DNA of 38,742 nt from a virus, in IMG/VR virus record IMGVR_UViG_3300035670_000592, positions 1-38,742 of that record; one strand, 5' to 3'. Below the pieces are notes generated by a model, which saw only the letters and a program-made list of their open reading frames with translations, was not told the origin of the DNA and searched no databases. The translations under genes were made by a program, and so were the position numbers. Positions 3,812 to 30,313 of the stretch are shown here, in pieces. Every line of letters starts with the position of its first letter. Position 1 is the first letter of the stretch.

Positions 3812-4218
3812 CAGAGCGGCTTGCAAGGCAAGCCGACGAGGCCATTAATAATGCCACTGATTGGACGGAAATATATTGTCAATTGGCTTCTTTGCAATTG
3901 GTCGATCCATTGTTTCAGGCGAGCAACTTTGCTCGTCTTCCCGTCAAGCTGATTGCTGATGTCTTAGAAAAAAGCTATAAGACTTTGCATGCAAGAACAA
4001 ATGCGGCAAGCATTAGCACTGCAAAACTAGCAATGGTTGTGATGGGAGCGCTGGGGGCGAAGGGGGGCAAAGTTAAGCTTGATCAGTTTCTTCCGTATGA
4101 GCTTGATGATGGCATGTCTTCATTGAAGCCATCAACAAAAGAAGCGCTTGAATGGGCGTTGAAGAATGAGAAGTTGCCAGCAGCGATTGTAGGCATGATT
4201 GGCGCTGAACTTAGTTGA
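3290..4218 (+). CDS. Tail assembly chaperone GT-like fusion by -1 frameshift
   Basis: Reading the first 173 codons of the G-like gene and slipping back one base at 3808 continues into an open frame with no stop until 4218, adding about 136 residues (309 in total). The joined sequence runs from 'EEEGKN' into 'LTERLARQADEAINN'. The added part has a Trp/Tyr-rich entry ('TDWTEIYCQLASLQL') and a helical C terminus ('MVVMGALGAKGGK' region). The downstream frame has no ATG at a sensible place before 3883, so its product is best explained as the shifted extension, equivalent to lambda gpGT. Normal efficiency in such systems is a few percent; that is family knowledge, not measured here. Confidence 0.8.
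3802..3835 (+). promoter_or_regulatory. Programmed -1 frameshift signal
   Basis: The heptamer A AAA AAC occupies 3802-3808 in the correct register (zero-frame codons AAA AAC), immediately before a TAA stop. After an eight-base spacer comes an eight-base-pair hairpin, cggcttgc / gcaagccg with loop aag (3817-3835). Slippery site, spacing and stem all match standard -1 signals. Confidence 0.88.
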
Positions 4219-4254
4219 AAATGTTAGATTGGAGCTATTATGGCTTAATTAATA

Positions 4255-4767
4255 ATGGCCTATCAGCTTCGCTTTGAAAGTAATGCATTTCGAGCTGATA
4301 GCGCAATTGGCAGGCTTCTTGATGGATTGTCTGCGCTATCAAGAAATGTAAGGCGATTTACTGGCGCACAAGTAGCCGAATATGGCGGAAACGAGCTTCG
4401 TCAATTAAGGGGAATCAATGGTCGCACTTTTGAAAGGGCGATGGATTGGGCTGATGCTGATTTTGACCAGCAAATGGCGAGCGAAAAATGGGACTGGCCC
4501 AATGAAACGCGAAGAAAAAATGGGCAAATAGTGAATAGTCCTAGGGATATTATTGACACTGGAGCATTGCCGCAAAGTAAACGAAGAGAGCAGATTAGTA
4601 ATTCAGTTGTTGAATTTATTTGGGACGATGAAGTGGCGGAAGGCGTGCATGATGGCATGGTTACCAAGTCCAACAAGCGGCTCCCGTCTCGTCCATGGAC
4701 TGAACCCACCTTGGATGAGATTGACGGCATTATTGAAAGCATGCTTCGCCAAGGAGGACGCCGCTGA
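4255..4767 (+). CDS. Minor tail / HK97 gp10-like protein
   Basis: A 170-residue protein with a helical N-terminal half and a C-terminal beta segment. 'DTGALPQSKRREQ' and 'VAEGVHDG' followed by 'LPSRPWTEP' recall HK97 gp10-type neck or tail completion proteins, where a 'DTG.L..S' turn and a final 'R.P' segment are typical. It is placed between the chaperones and the tape measure, which is unusual for gp10 relatives normally found before the tube; a minor tail assembly role is possible. Its TGA overlaps the tape measure ATG by one base. Confidence 0.55.
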   Translation: MAYQLRFESNAFRADSAIGRLLDGLSALSRNVRRFTGAQVAEYGGNELRQLRGINGRTFERAMDWADADFDQQMASEKWDWPNETRRKNGQIVNSPRDIIDTGALPQSKRREQISNSVVEFIWDDEVAEGVHDGMVTKSNKRLPSRPWTEPTLDEIDGIIESMLRQGGRR

Positions 4768-22898: not shown

Positions 22899-23268
22899 TT
22901 CGCAACTCTCCTCCTAGTGCCTTCACAGCCTCGCTAGCGTCCGCTGGTGGGGCTGTTTCAATGAGAACAGACGGAACAATGGCATTGGGAAGGGCTGTGA
23001 TTTTGGCTTCGGGGAAAAGCTTATGAGCTTCCCATGCAAGAGCATTTGCCTTGTTTTCCTTTTCTTCTTGTTCCCATTGTGCCACGAGAGAAGCCGTTTG
23101 TTTGTCAACGGTTTCCATGACAATTTTGGTTTTCCATTCGATCCAGTCCGGACGACAATGCTCCATGAGCAGCTTGAACCATGCATTAAAAGCAAGAGAG
23201 GGCCATCGTGAGACGGCCCAGAGTCCTGCTTCGTAGCAGAGAGCATTAAACCAACTTTCGCGGCTCAC
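22864..23268 (-). CDS. Hypothetical protein behind the endolysin
   Basis: A 134-residue protein. I start it at GTG 23268, which overlaps the endolysin stop (GTGA) and has AGGAAAG a few bases upstream; a TTG at 23283 would add five residues. The N-terminal half is Trp-rich ('SWFNALCYEAGLWAVSRW'), the middle a charged helix ('VAQWEQEEKENKANALAWEA'), with no clear membrane helix. It is co-transcribed with the lysis genes. Function not recognised. Confidence 0.6.
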   Translation of the reverse strand: MSRESWFNALCYEAGLWAVSRWPSLAFNAWFKLLMEHCRPDWIEWKTKIVMETVDKQTASLVAQWEQEEKENKANALAWEAHKLFPEAKITALPNAIVPSVLIETAPPADASEAVKALGGELRITYQLPSLEAP

Positions 23269-24212
23269 CGACTTTCCTGCCAAACTGAAATATACAAATC
23301 GCCTTGTTTTGTCAATGGCAACACTTTATCGCGGAGGTCAATGTTGTAACAGCGAATACATCCATGAGTTGGGAATAATTTCTGCCTAGGAGCCCACGCG
23401 CCTGGCCAGCCATTTGCCGAACCTCCCGAATGCAGCATAATTCCCGCCCTTCCATTGTTTCTTTCTTGACCTTCCAAGTCGATCATGTCAAAGCTGTACC
23501 AGCCGTAAGACATTAGGGTGCGATCATAAGCAGGCTTGTCCCCCACGCGATCATAGTCTCGATAAATGGCGCCAACTTTGTACACCCCCACTGGTGTGTC
23601 GCTGCTTTGGATGCGCCATTCAAAATCACTATATTGTCCACGAGCGAGACAAGGAATTTCCCACAACAGCTTTCCTTCATAGGAAAATGCTTTCATGGTT
23701 TCCACTGCATCGTTCACCACGAGATGATAGTCGCCTGGCTTAAAGCCGAAATCATGCGGGCGTTTCTTGGGGCCAATCATAGTAATTTTCGTAGATTCAG
23801 GAGCATATTCTTTCATGAGTTTAGAAAGCTTTGCAGGATACTCTGGATCCGTTGCATAGCTTTGCTCTTTTAACATGCGGGCTGCAGCGTAACGATTAGG
23901 CGCATTATTGACGCCTTTGAAATGACGATAGTCTTTATACCAGCGCGTCACTAGATATTCAATGCAAGCAGCAAGACTTGGAAAGTCAAGAAAGCCTGCC
24001 TTGATTGTCACCCATTGACCATCGTAAAATTCTTGAGTTGTGGTAGTTGTGCCCTCACCTTTTGCGCCGATGTAGTTATGCTTGCCAGACGTGTGTTTTC
24101 CAAAACCGCTTTCTAGGCAGCATTGTGCAGCAACAAGTTCTGGATAGCGGGCTCCACATTTTCTTGCAATAGTCTGGCACGAGTCCCAGAAAGCCCTGTT
24201 GGAAGCCGACAT
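23265..24212 (-). CDS. Endolysin: glucosaminidase-like plus L,D-transpeptidase-like domains
   Basis: A 315-residue protein. Residues about 1-135 resemble FlgJ-type glucosaminidases (PF01832): 'CCLESGFGKHTSGKHNYIGA' gives the catalytic Glu34, followed by 'TTTQEFYDGQWVTIKAGFLDF' and a 'YAARMLKEQSYATDPEYPAK' helix. Residues about 160-315 carry an L,D-transpeptidase (YkuD) signature: His in 'GIMLHSGG' and then 'THGCIRCYN' with Cys285 as nucleophile. It would cut glycan strands and act on the peptide stem of peptidoglycan. No signal peptide is seen, so release probably needs a holin. The 47-residue membrane protein begins four bases upstream. Confidence 0.82.
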   Translation of the reverse strand: MSASNRAFWDSCQTIARKCGARYPELVAAQCCLESGFGKHTSGKHNYIGAKGEGTTTTTQEFYDGQWVTIKAGFLDFPSLAACIEYLVTRWYKDYRHFKGVNNAPNRYAAARMLKEQSYATDPEYPAKLSKLMKEYAPESTKITMIGPKKRPHDFGFKPGDYHLVVNDAVETMKAFSYEGKLLWEIPCLARGQYSDFEWRIQSSDTPVGVYKVGAIYRDYDRVGDKPAYDRTLMSYGWYSFDMIDLEGQERNNGRAGIMLHSGGSANGWPGAWAPRQKLFPTHGCIRCYNIDLRDKVLPLTKQGDLYISVWQESR

Positions 24213-28442: not shown

Positions 28443-29207
28443 TCAAGCTCCACGGTCCATAGAAATGGTTAAGGGGCGCCCGCCGGGGTAATGTTCAAAA
28501 AAGTATTGCTGAGTCTTCTGCGTCATAATGCCTGCCTGCATGGCAAGATCAGCGCCATCAAGGCTCACGATTTGAGCTTCTTGCCCTTCGTCCGTATCAG
28601 GGTCGTAAATGGCAATGGCACAATGCGCTTCATTGATTTCGATGTCATACATCTGCTCAATGGCTTGTGCATAGGCACCAAGTTGCATGCGATAGTCGCC
28701 TAGCTGCGTATCAGGCTTTTGTTTGAAGCTCGTCTTCCAATCGAGCAAAGCAATGTTGCCATTGCCCATGGTTGCAAGCATGTCGAAGGTGCCTGAATAG
28801 CCAGTTTCAGTGGAGGGGCAATACCAAGCGATGGCACTTTCCACCAAGAGAGGACTGGCTACTGTCGTGAGAAAATTGGCAATGCTGTCGAAATAAGGAA
28901 CAAACAATGGATGGGAGTCAAGGTGGCAGTTAATGTCCTCGCCGTTCCAGAAATCCTCTAGAACGCCATGGAGCCAATTGCCACGTTCTACGGCAGAGCG
29001 CGTGCGACGATTTGCTTCTTCATCGCCTACTTTCTTGCGCCAGTTCATGAGCGCTGCAATTTTGCCAGGCGGCGAACACGCGCTCGCAATAGTCGTCACA
29101 GAGGGCAAAACAATGCCTTCTGGGGCATTTGGAAAATCGTTTAAGACGTAATTTCGCTTGCCATTCAAGGAAATCCTATTTGGAGAGTAATGCTTTAGGC
29201 GATTCAT
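28443..29207 (-). CDS. RecB/Cas4-like PD-(D/E)XK exonuclease
   Basis: A 254-residue protein from ATG 29207 (a TTG five codons upstream overlaps the HNH stop). Motifs in order: 'GNWLHGVLEDF' (His80, Glu84), 'TGYSGTFDML' (Asp142), 'LLDWKTS' (Asp156, Lys158), 'QLGAYA' (Gln175, Tyr179). This is the layout of RecB-like/Cas4-like phage exonucleases. It would resect double-strand ends for the annealing protein encoded upstream. The first 20 residues ('RLKHYSPNRISLNGKRNY') recur, diverged, at the start of the neighbouring HNH protein. Confidence 0.85.
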   Translation of the reverse strand: MNRLKHYSPNRISLNGKRNYVLNDFPNAPEGIVLPSVTTIASACSPPGKIAALMNWRKKVGDEEANRRTRSAVERGNWLHGVLEDFWNGEDINCHLDSHPLFVPYFDSIANFLTTVASPLLVESAIAWYCPSTETGYSGTFDMLATMGNGNIALLDWKTSFKQKPDTQLGDYRMQLGAYAQAIEQMYDIEINEAHCAIAIYDPDTDEGQEAQIVSLDGADLAMQAGIMTQKTQQYFFEHYPGGRPLTISMDRGA

Positions 29208-29218
29208 TTGTGGAAGAT

Positions 29219-29929
29219 TCAAGGTTTTGAATTAAAAAGCTCATCCAAAGTCCTTCCTTTCTTGATTAAGGAATGAATGGCGTAGCGCTCAACAGACAAC
29301 TCACGAGCCCACGCTGATATACATTTTGTTTCTCCGTTAAAGGTGACAAGAATGGAACTTCGCCTGTTCTCTGCTTGTTCTTCTCGCGTTGACCATTTGC
29401 AATTATCTGGAGAGTAATCCCCGTTGTAATCAATCCTGTCCAAGGATTTACCGACTGGCCTTTCTCCCATGTCAGCCAAAAACTGCTCAAATCCACCCTC
29501 AAGCCAAGACTCGCAAATCTTAATTCCACGCCCGCCATAATTCTCGTAAGCATGAGCGTTTGGGTTTAAGACGCGGGCCTTCATTGATATGTAAGACGTA
29601 TAAGTCCTGTCTGATTTATTGTTTTTACGATTACTCCTCCTTCCGTGCTTTGTGTGGTTTTCGCGGTTGTAACAACCACAAGAAATAATATTGCCAGATC
29701 TTAGCGCGGTTCCGCGTACAATCTTAATTGCACCGCATTCGCACTGGCAATTCCATGCAGCGAAATTGTTTAAGCTTTCAGATCGACTCAAGACTGTTAA
29801 GCGACCAAAAACTTGACCGCTCAAATCCCATTTAGGAGACCAGCCCACTTTTACTCCAAGCAAAACACAAGCATAGCGCTTCTTGTTGATCTGAAGCCGA
29901 TTGGGCTCGTAGCGGGCGAGAGAAGGCAT
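29219..29929 (-). CDS. HNH homing-type endonuclease fused to an exonuclease N-terminal fragment
   Basis: A 236-residue protein from ATG 29929; GTG 29965 would give 248. The nuclease part starts near 'WDLSGQVFGRLTVLSR', continues with a zinc-like 'CQCECG' and 'SCGCYN' pair, then 'YISMKARVLNPNAHAYENYG' and 'SLDRIDYNGDYSPDNCKW', typical of free-standing and intron-borne phage HNH proteins. Residues before it ('SLARYEPNRLQINKKRYACV') look like the start of the neighbouring exonuclease, with about 8 of 17 positions identical. The gene sits directly upstream of that exonuclease. Likely a mobile cassette that carried part of its original target. Confidence 0.8.
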   Translation of the reverse strand: MPSLARYEPNRLQINKKRYACVLLGVKVGWSPKWDLSGQVFGRLTVLSRSESLNNFAAWNCQCECGAIKIVRGTALRSGNIISCGCYNRENHTKHGRRSNRKNNKSDRTYTSYISMKARVLNPNAHAYENYGGRGIKICESWLEGGFEQFLADMGERPVGKSLDRIDYNGDYSPDNCKWSTREEQAENRRSSILVTFNGETKCISAWARELSVERYAIHSLIKKGRTLDELFNSKP

Positions 29930-29966
29930 CGAAAGTTTGATGAGACATAGATCGTAACAGGCCACT

Positions 29967-30005
29967 ATTTCTCGTTCATGACAATTGGCTCATTTCTCGT
30001 TCATG
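29967..30005 (-). repeat. 14-base direct repeat flanking the HNH insertion
   Basis: atttctcgttcatg occurs at 29967-29980 and 29992-30005. On the - strand both copies read the codons ATG AAC GAG AAA followed by a stop (TGA in the real gene end, TAG in the copy), that is 'MNEK-stop'. So the 3' end of the 107-residue gene is duplicated just before the HNH gene. Confidence 0.8.
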
Positions 30006-30313
30006 TCCCAAAAGTATTCGCAGCCTTCTTCCGTATAAGGCGGCGTTGCAAGATAAGATTGCCAGCGACTAGCGGGCGCCATATAGCGCCAACAATCTTC
30101 CTTGACAGGGCATTCATTGCCCTGACACATTGCATGATCGGCCATGAGAATAGTGCGTGCAGTTTGAGAAAGAAAAGTTCGATCAGCAACAGGACAGTCA
30201 GCAACAGCAAGCAGCATTGCAGCAATGCGTTTGTCACTGCTAAGCGTATCCTCAGGGAAGCTCCAGAATGCTTCATGACAGGCATCAATCAGAGAGCGAC
30301 GATTCGTCAACAT
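29990..30313 (-). CDS. Cys-rich hypothetical phage protein
   Basis: A 107-residue protein. Its C-terminal half has a regular Cys pattern ('MCQGNECPVKEDCWRYM', later 'EEGCEYFWD'), which resembles a small metal-binding phage family with 'CxxxxCp...C.ry' and a distal Cys. The N-terminal half is helical. Function unknown; the pattern could bind Zn or an Fe-S cluster. Its start overlaps the preceding gene's end by 29 bases. Confidence 0.65.
   Translation of the reverse strand: MLTNRRSLIDACHEAFWSFPEDTLSSDKRIAAMLLAVADCPVADRTFLSQTARTILMADHAMCQGNECPVKEDCWRYMAPASRWQSYLATPPYTEEGCEYFWDMNEK

Follow-up and report, generated by a model that had tools for sequence, protein, structure and literature searches.

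An HNH gene inserted in a phage exonuclease gene together with a substitute 5' end: a putative homing cassette

The locus analyzed here raises the question of how an HNH endonuclease ORF came to begin like the exonuclease gene that stands intact directly behind it. It lies in a viral contig of 38,742 nucleotides (IMG/VR record IMGVR_UViG_3300035670_000592), the whole of which is called the window, and its nearest match in the phage collection was Synechococcus phage S-CBS4; the exonuclease gene is regarded as that of a cyanophage. Based on the letters of this DNA, a first-pass annotation proposed that a cassette from a relative with the HNH gene inside its exonuclease gene had been inserted here with the donor's flanks, namely the end of the upstream gene and a fragment of the exonuclease start, beside the recipient's own exonuclease.

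Organization of the exonuclease/HNH locus

The features of the locus are the following:

29990..30313, minus strand: small upstream gene for a hypothetical protein, phrog_20586-like, with MNEK-TGA at its end (first MNEK copy at 29990-30004)
29965..29979, minus strand: second copy of the upstream gene end, MNEK-TAG, which shares bases with the GTG start of the exonuclease, an overlap also seen in HNH-less relatives
29873..29965, minus strand: native-type exonuclease 5' end with GTG start, 31 codons, ending ..ARYEPNRLQINKKRY, severed from its gene by the insertion
29849..29872, minus strand: linker of 8 codons from the exonuclease remnant to the HNH gene, open in frame, unconserved
29219..29848, minus strand: HNH endonuclease, 209 aa from GTG, GGAG upstream, with a phrog_374 match and a predicted structure
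29148..29207, minus strand: substitute exonuclease 5' end, MNRLKHYSPNRISLNGKRNY, its ATG 12 nt behind the HNH stop
28443..29147, minus strand: exonuclease body, PD-(D/E)XK, continuous with HNH-less relatives
29219-29965, minus strand: chimeric ORF of exonuclease start and HNH (the 'HNH protein' ORF)

The exonuclease ORF (28443-29222) is intact and directly follows the HNH gene, as first noted, and it matched PF12705 and phrog_298 in profile searches. Its body shows 90-91% nucleotide identity to L003, L035 and L014 and is under purifying selection (dN 0.015, dS 0.52 between the window and L003); L003 and L072 are the other two IMG/VR contigs with the layout of the window. Elsewhere in the window, positions 23265-24212 (minus strand) encode a putative lysin with glucosaminidase and L,D-transpeptidase (YkuD) domains in one protein.

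Profile searches with the HNH ORF matched phrog_374 (E 1e-64) and phrog_3377 (E 9e-48); the Pfam search of the protein gave no match up to E 1, and solved structures searched by sequence with the HNH profile gave no relevant match. With respect to a beta-beta-alpha-metal HNH fold, the structure predicted for the HNH part (pLDDT 89.5) found no match at E 0.001 with Foldseek alone. From realignment only, it aligned best with the HNH restriction enzyme PacI (3ldy) at a modest Z of 6.2 (below 8; rmsd 2.4, 75 residues), and its C-terminus aligned weakly with the DNA-binding domain of I-TevI (1i3j, modest Z of 3.5). The model suggests an N-terminal Cys-rich domain, a PacI-like HNH and a C-terminal I-TevI-like predicted DNA-binding segment, and the phrog_374 match is firmer evidence for the HNH identity than the structural Z values. 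Concerning the start of this gene, the linker is unconserved (dN/dS about 0.5 to >2 in three pairwise comparisons, with few sites) but the HNH protein from Met/Val-GWS on is under strong purifying selection (dN 0.035, dS 0.68, dN/dS 0.05 between the window and L003). Therefore, the probable start of the HNH gene is GTG 29848, where L003 and L072 have ATG, and the apparent fusion would be a relic; translation as an exonuclease-start/HNH fusion may nevertheless occur.

In the relatives L012 (1685-2386) and L020 (about 4127-4750), the upstream-gene/exonuclease junction is taken up by unrelated HNH genes of a classical kind (IDHIIPRSKGG type). Since other small genes are also found there in relatives, this junction is regarded as an insertion hot spot.

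The two exonuclease starts and the three carriers

In HNH-less relatives the exonuclease begins (M/V)xCYDLCLxxLxMPxxxRYEPNRLQINKKRYYVxxDFPN, and the first 31 codons of the HNH ORF correspond to the exonuclease start of about 90 HNH-less alleles. This native-type 5' end adjoins a normal MNEK-TAG-GTG junction in the window and shows 87-90% nucleotide identity to L003 and L034. Alignment to the HNH-less relatives thus supports the earlier view that the HNH gene lies inside the exonuclease gene and that its ORF is chimeric. The resemblance first noticed between the N-terminus of the HNH ORF and the adjacent exonuclease start was also borne out by an alignment test, with a local score of 48 matched by one of 20,000 shuffles; when each of the two was compared with the native start of L030, none of 20,000 shuffles equalled the score. 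The exonuclease-like N-terminus of the HNH ORF was confined to the exonuclease locus when other locations were checked.

The downstream exonuclease start, MNRLKHYSPNRISLNGKRNY, is the odd copy. It has no ACYDLCL leader, it begins at ATG 29207 and PNRISLN replaces PNRLQIN; where it has RISLN, 82 distinct HNH-less alleles show R(L/M/I)Q(I/L)(N/Q/D). A close match to this substitute 5' end was found only in L003 and then in L036. Hence, the first-pass claim of an exonuclease fragment in front of the HNH protein holds in that the 5' end is truly duplicated, and fails in the assignment of the copies, the upstream one being native-type. The substitute start is under purifying selection (dN/dS 0.02/0.82 between the window and L003, with one non-synonymous and six synonymous changes), which fits the expectation if that start is used. 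No good Shine-Dalgarno sequence was found ahead of ATG 29207, and therefore its use would rest on coupling to the HNH stop, with which the start overlaps in L072.

The HNH-less exonuclease of the close relative L036 (3417-3540) shows the native leader followed by the cassette-type HYKPNRISLNGKRNYV (HYKPNRISLN). Judging from its sequence, this allele could be an excision product or scar, that is a resistant allele, or a donor-like allele. As RISLN is found in this HNH-less allele and also in some distant exonucleases, the substitute end may represent a foreign allele of the ordinary kind and not one recoded for immunity.

Relatives with the HNH gene inside the exonuclease, which the first-pass annotation had proposed to look for, were found in L003 and L072; with the window they are the only three contigs carrying this HNH gene among some 93 distinct exonuclease alleles. 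Their HNH proteins are 92% (L003) and 75% (L072) identical in amino acids to that of the window. All three share the insertion point after exonuclease codon 31 (after KKRY), the 8-codon linker, the Met/Val before GWS, the HNH gene and a second start with PNRISLN. L072 and the HNH-less L070 form a clean empty site, with 97.8% nucleotide identity in the upstream gene, 97.3% in the exonuclease body and about 97% identity in the flanks, of which the left one extends to CGCTA and the right one begins at ACGATTTTCC. L072 is native up to ..CAGAAAAAACGCTA, continues with the linker, the HNH gene and the substitute start, and is native again from ACGATTTTCC. This comparison reverses the first-pass assignment of an imported piece in front of the HNH gene: the native-type start is in its normal place and the downstream exonuclease start is the imported one. 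In a tree of exonuclease bodies L072 is nested among HNH-less alleles and the window and L003 stand beside HNH-less alleles; therefore the HNH gene and the ISLN start were acquired together. This tree, set against the distribution of the HNH gene, indicates horizontal spread beyond vertical descent.

Concerning the upstream junction, ATGAACGAGAAA-TGA (29990-30004) and ATGAACGAGAAA-TAG (29965-29979) stand on the minus strand at a spacing of exactly 25 bases with different stops, as first described; the upstream gene terminates ATGAACGAGAAATGA and ATGAACGAGAAATAG follows 25 bases further on. Exact direct repeats of 13-mers within 60 nt are rare in the 38.7 kb window, which has just one besides this. 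Among all alleles examined the tandem occurs in the window only, which rules it out as a component of the mobile unit, and the HNH carriers L003 and L072 have a single junction, which contradicts the proposal that the duplicated junction travelled with a donor cassette and makes it the record of a recombination that took place separately and later, at the left edge. The repeat sits where the identity between the window and L003 falls, in a mosaic of 80% amino acid identity in the upstream gene, 92% in the HNH protein and 97% in the exonuclease. Because of this location, the second copy is read as a separate event, probably a recombination scar or a 25-bp tandem duplication private to the window genome. 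Derivation from a deleted small HNH gene of the L012 type (TGAGCAAAACAATT) was considered, and the stretch is too short to speak for or against it.

Gene-end duplication elsewhere in the HNH family

Loci with HNH relatives were taken from the contigs of viruses and of bacterial genomes and from 21 regions of named phages. The end of a neighboring gene was duplicated across the HNH gene in about 15 of 272 such loci, well above controls, a frequency that is a biased estimate, as some loci known to be positive were part of the alignment behind the second and third scan. HNH loci with no duplication are the majority in the family, and no duplication was found in most of the named phages examined (AP22, BcepMigl, D3, phage K, Moonbeam, Troll and U1G). 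In an unanchored flank test, scores of at least 58 were reached by 11/251 distinct HNH loci, against 4/1500 mixed flank pairs and, within those contigs, 7/1219 ordinary ORFs (Fisher p 3e-5 for the latter). The mixed-flank null of this test had high outliers (179, 109 and 81), probably from homologous loci; the non-HNH-gene control and end-anchored tests were added. Stop-anchored 3'-end duplications with scores of at least 30, in which a C-terminal peptide is duplicated and both copies end at a stop, occurred at 7 of the 233 HNH loci and in none of 6000 mixed pairs; 5'-end duplications, of an N-terminal peptide, occurred at 8/204 HNH loci against 0.4 expected. Between the duplicated copies, codons for the same amino acid differ in 107 of 183 cases. 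The targets are:

Duplicated gene start: exonuclease (window, L003, L072), SSB (L087), ParB-like (L105), small HNH gene (L403), unnamed genes (L570, L103)
Duplicated gene end: Mu Gam-like (L510), DUF7484 (L089), MazG-like (L586), Ig-like protein (L124), ERCC4 nuclease (L511, from the unanchored test), unnamed genes (L390, L594, L459), L459 and L594 being short

The HNH ORF of L124, L510, L586 and L594 ends in the stranded native C-terminus and is the mirror image of that of the window. Recurrence at three exonuclease loci and around unrelated genes is at odds with a one-off illegitimate insertion.

A second empty site is found in cultured phages. The MazG-like gp39 of Vibrio phage 1.133.O ends INGCYVKEADL and its HNH ORF ends INGSFVKEADL, which runs into the next gene exactly as in the HNH-less 1.226.O. 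Empty-site alleles in close relatives, a mark of free-standing homing endonucleases, are therefore present both here and in the L072/L070 pair. At a third empty site, Ruminococcus phage phiRgIBDN1 against phiRg519T2, the duplication of nine codons includes the ribosome site of the next gene; here a gene junction was duplicated, so that pure gene-end substitutes do not account for all cases. No empty-site relatives of L089 were found in the phage collection, and phi105-like Gam genes are candidates for L510.

Other arrangements were seen in the same material. Vibrio phage 1.239.O (L603, 647-1492) has an in-frame fusion of a canonical HNH domain at the N-terminus of the MazG-like protein, the one with the cassette in 1.133.O. 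In Escherichia phage U1G (L595, 190-3609) an HNH relative splits DNA polymerase I into two ORFs with no duplicated ends, to all appearance the classical split-gene outcome within the same enzyme family. L119, itself among the control ORFs, has a different putative homing gene (1541-2089) between exact ten-residue repeats KWGRLGECDD, which suggests that flank duplication is not restricted to this HNH family.

Proposed explanation, alternatives and meaning

We propose, with a probability of nearly 0.8, that a free-standing HNH homing cassette was inserted after codon 31 of a recombination exonuclease gene, in its 5' coding region, and carried a replacement 5' end. As read from the alignments, the cassette is made up of the HNH gene and of a substitute exonuclease 5' end, which is diverged and has its own start; the native start is stranded in frame before the HNH gene, and the substitute start behind that gene serves the exonuclease. 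The same comparisons establish, at the level of sequence, the insertion point, the joint acquisition of HNH gene and substitute end, the selection on both and the recurrence at other genes. We infer cleavage and homing from this pattern: in exonuclease alleles that lack the HNH gene, the HNH protein would cut near codons 24-36, a phage with the cassette would serve as template for repair of the break in a mixed infection, the cassette would thereby be copied in, and the substitute end would be immune to the HNH protein through its divergence. Since the substitute end differs at the cut site, the gene would be restored and the target would not. The same design is found elsewhere in the HNH family, at gene starts and, mirrored, at gene ends. 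It is also reasonably probable that these cases represent a widespread class of phage cassettes, in which an HNH gene with the recoded 5' or 3' end of the invaded conserved gene is harmless and self-immune with no intron or intein.

Three other explanations were weighed. A single illegitimate insertion, placing a donor upstream-gene end, exonuclease start and HNH gene beside an untouched recipient exonuclease, would account for the tandem MNEK junction and for the mosaic identity between the window and L003; yet L003 and L072 show the same HNH layout with a single junction, and the exonuclease part of that model is already contradicted, the downstream start being the unusual copy. We regard it as unlikely. 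Slightly less probable still is an origin unrelated to homing, in which a gene end was partially duplicated in tandem and an HNH gene was later captured between the copies, the duplication being irrelevant to mobility. Ordinary gene flanks are indeed occasionally duplicated (7/1219) and the HNH activity is a predicted one, but the enrichment at HNH genes, the anchoring at gene ends and copies that are diverged instead of near-identical speak against it, as do the empty sites of L072 and 1.133.O, where the HNH gene and the substitute end arrived jointly in near-identical flanks.

Very improbable is a self-splicing intron, or an intein, that lies in the exonuclease and bears the HNH gene; its excision would join codon 31 to the body and rebuild a protein of native length. 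The insertion after KKRY is precise and dropping the HNH gene with the second copy restores a native-looking reading frame. However, no Rfam match at gathering thresholds was obtained in the window, L003 or L072, so that a group I or group II intron-encoded endonuclease was rejected, and a permissive Rfam scan of the window gave only a sub-threshold snoRNA match. The 3' part is, moreover, a second coding start under purifying selection. An intein-encoded endonuclease with a Hint domain was likewise rejected, because a stop codon separates the HNH protein from the exonuclease, which has its own start.

The homing cassette proposed here most resembles the mobile ORFs (mORFs) described at atp6, atp9, cox2 and nad3 in the fungal mitochondria of Allomyces macrogynus and Glomus (PMC3630166). 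There too, a free endonuclease ORF lies near the end of a conserved gene, a diverged foreign end forms a hybrid gene and the native end is stranded; however, those enzymes are LAGLIDADG or GIY-YIG, the setting is mitochondrial and the C-terminal end is duplicated (PMC3630166). The phage cassettes have an HNH enzyme and both end types across the family: the duplicated end is N-terminal at the exonuclease of the window and C-terminal in L586, L510, L089 and L390. Phage T4 mobA at gene 39-60 is also an HNH homing endonuclease that splits a phage gene, and the downstream gene carries a change thought to protect against cleavage, but the result is a split topoisomerase gene with a 50-nt translational bypass and no duplicated, recoded gene end is described in these sources (PMC3014915, PMC5009743). 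Aeh1 mobE in nrdA is an HNH gene within an essential phage coding sequence, whereas its target becomes two assembling polypeptides and nothing is re-supplied (PMC2988022). The ShiLan insertion with a hidden HNH likewise lies inside a phage coding sequence with no intron or intein, but the host frame stays open through it and no gene end is duplicated (PMC11855218). The Skunavirus HNH endonucleases are free-standing and partly PacI-like, and genetic exclusion was tested for them; in the parts of that source consulted, flanking gene-end duplication is not mentioned (PMC12724721). Searchable reviews on phage homing genes and recent surveys of them describe no duplicated gene ends; as the subscription literature lay outside the search, priority is not certain.

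These observations connect the HNH genes of phages with a layout known from fungal mitochondria and suggest an answer to how coding sequences survive the entry of free-standing homing genes, namely that the cassette brings its own repair patch. Relatives of this HNH gene show the same arrangement at many other phage genes, and the patch would explain how useful genes are invaded without being destroyed. If this is true, the cassettes are vehicles through which phages exchange the ends of genes for replication and recombination, and they give rise to hybrid genes as well as to stranded gene ends and chimeric ORFs, which are misread by annotation pipelines. The model can be tested directly with cultured phages of Vibrio breoganii, where the presence of a single such cassette sets one phage apart from another.
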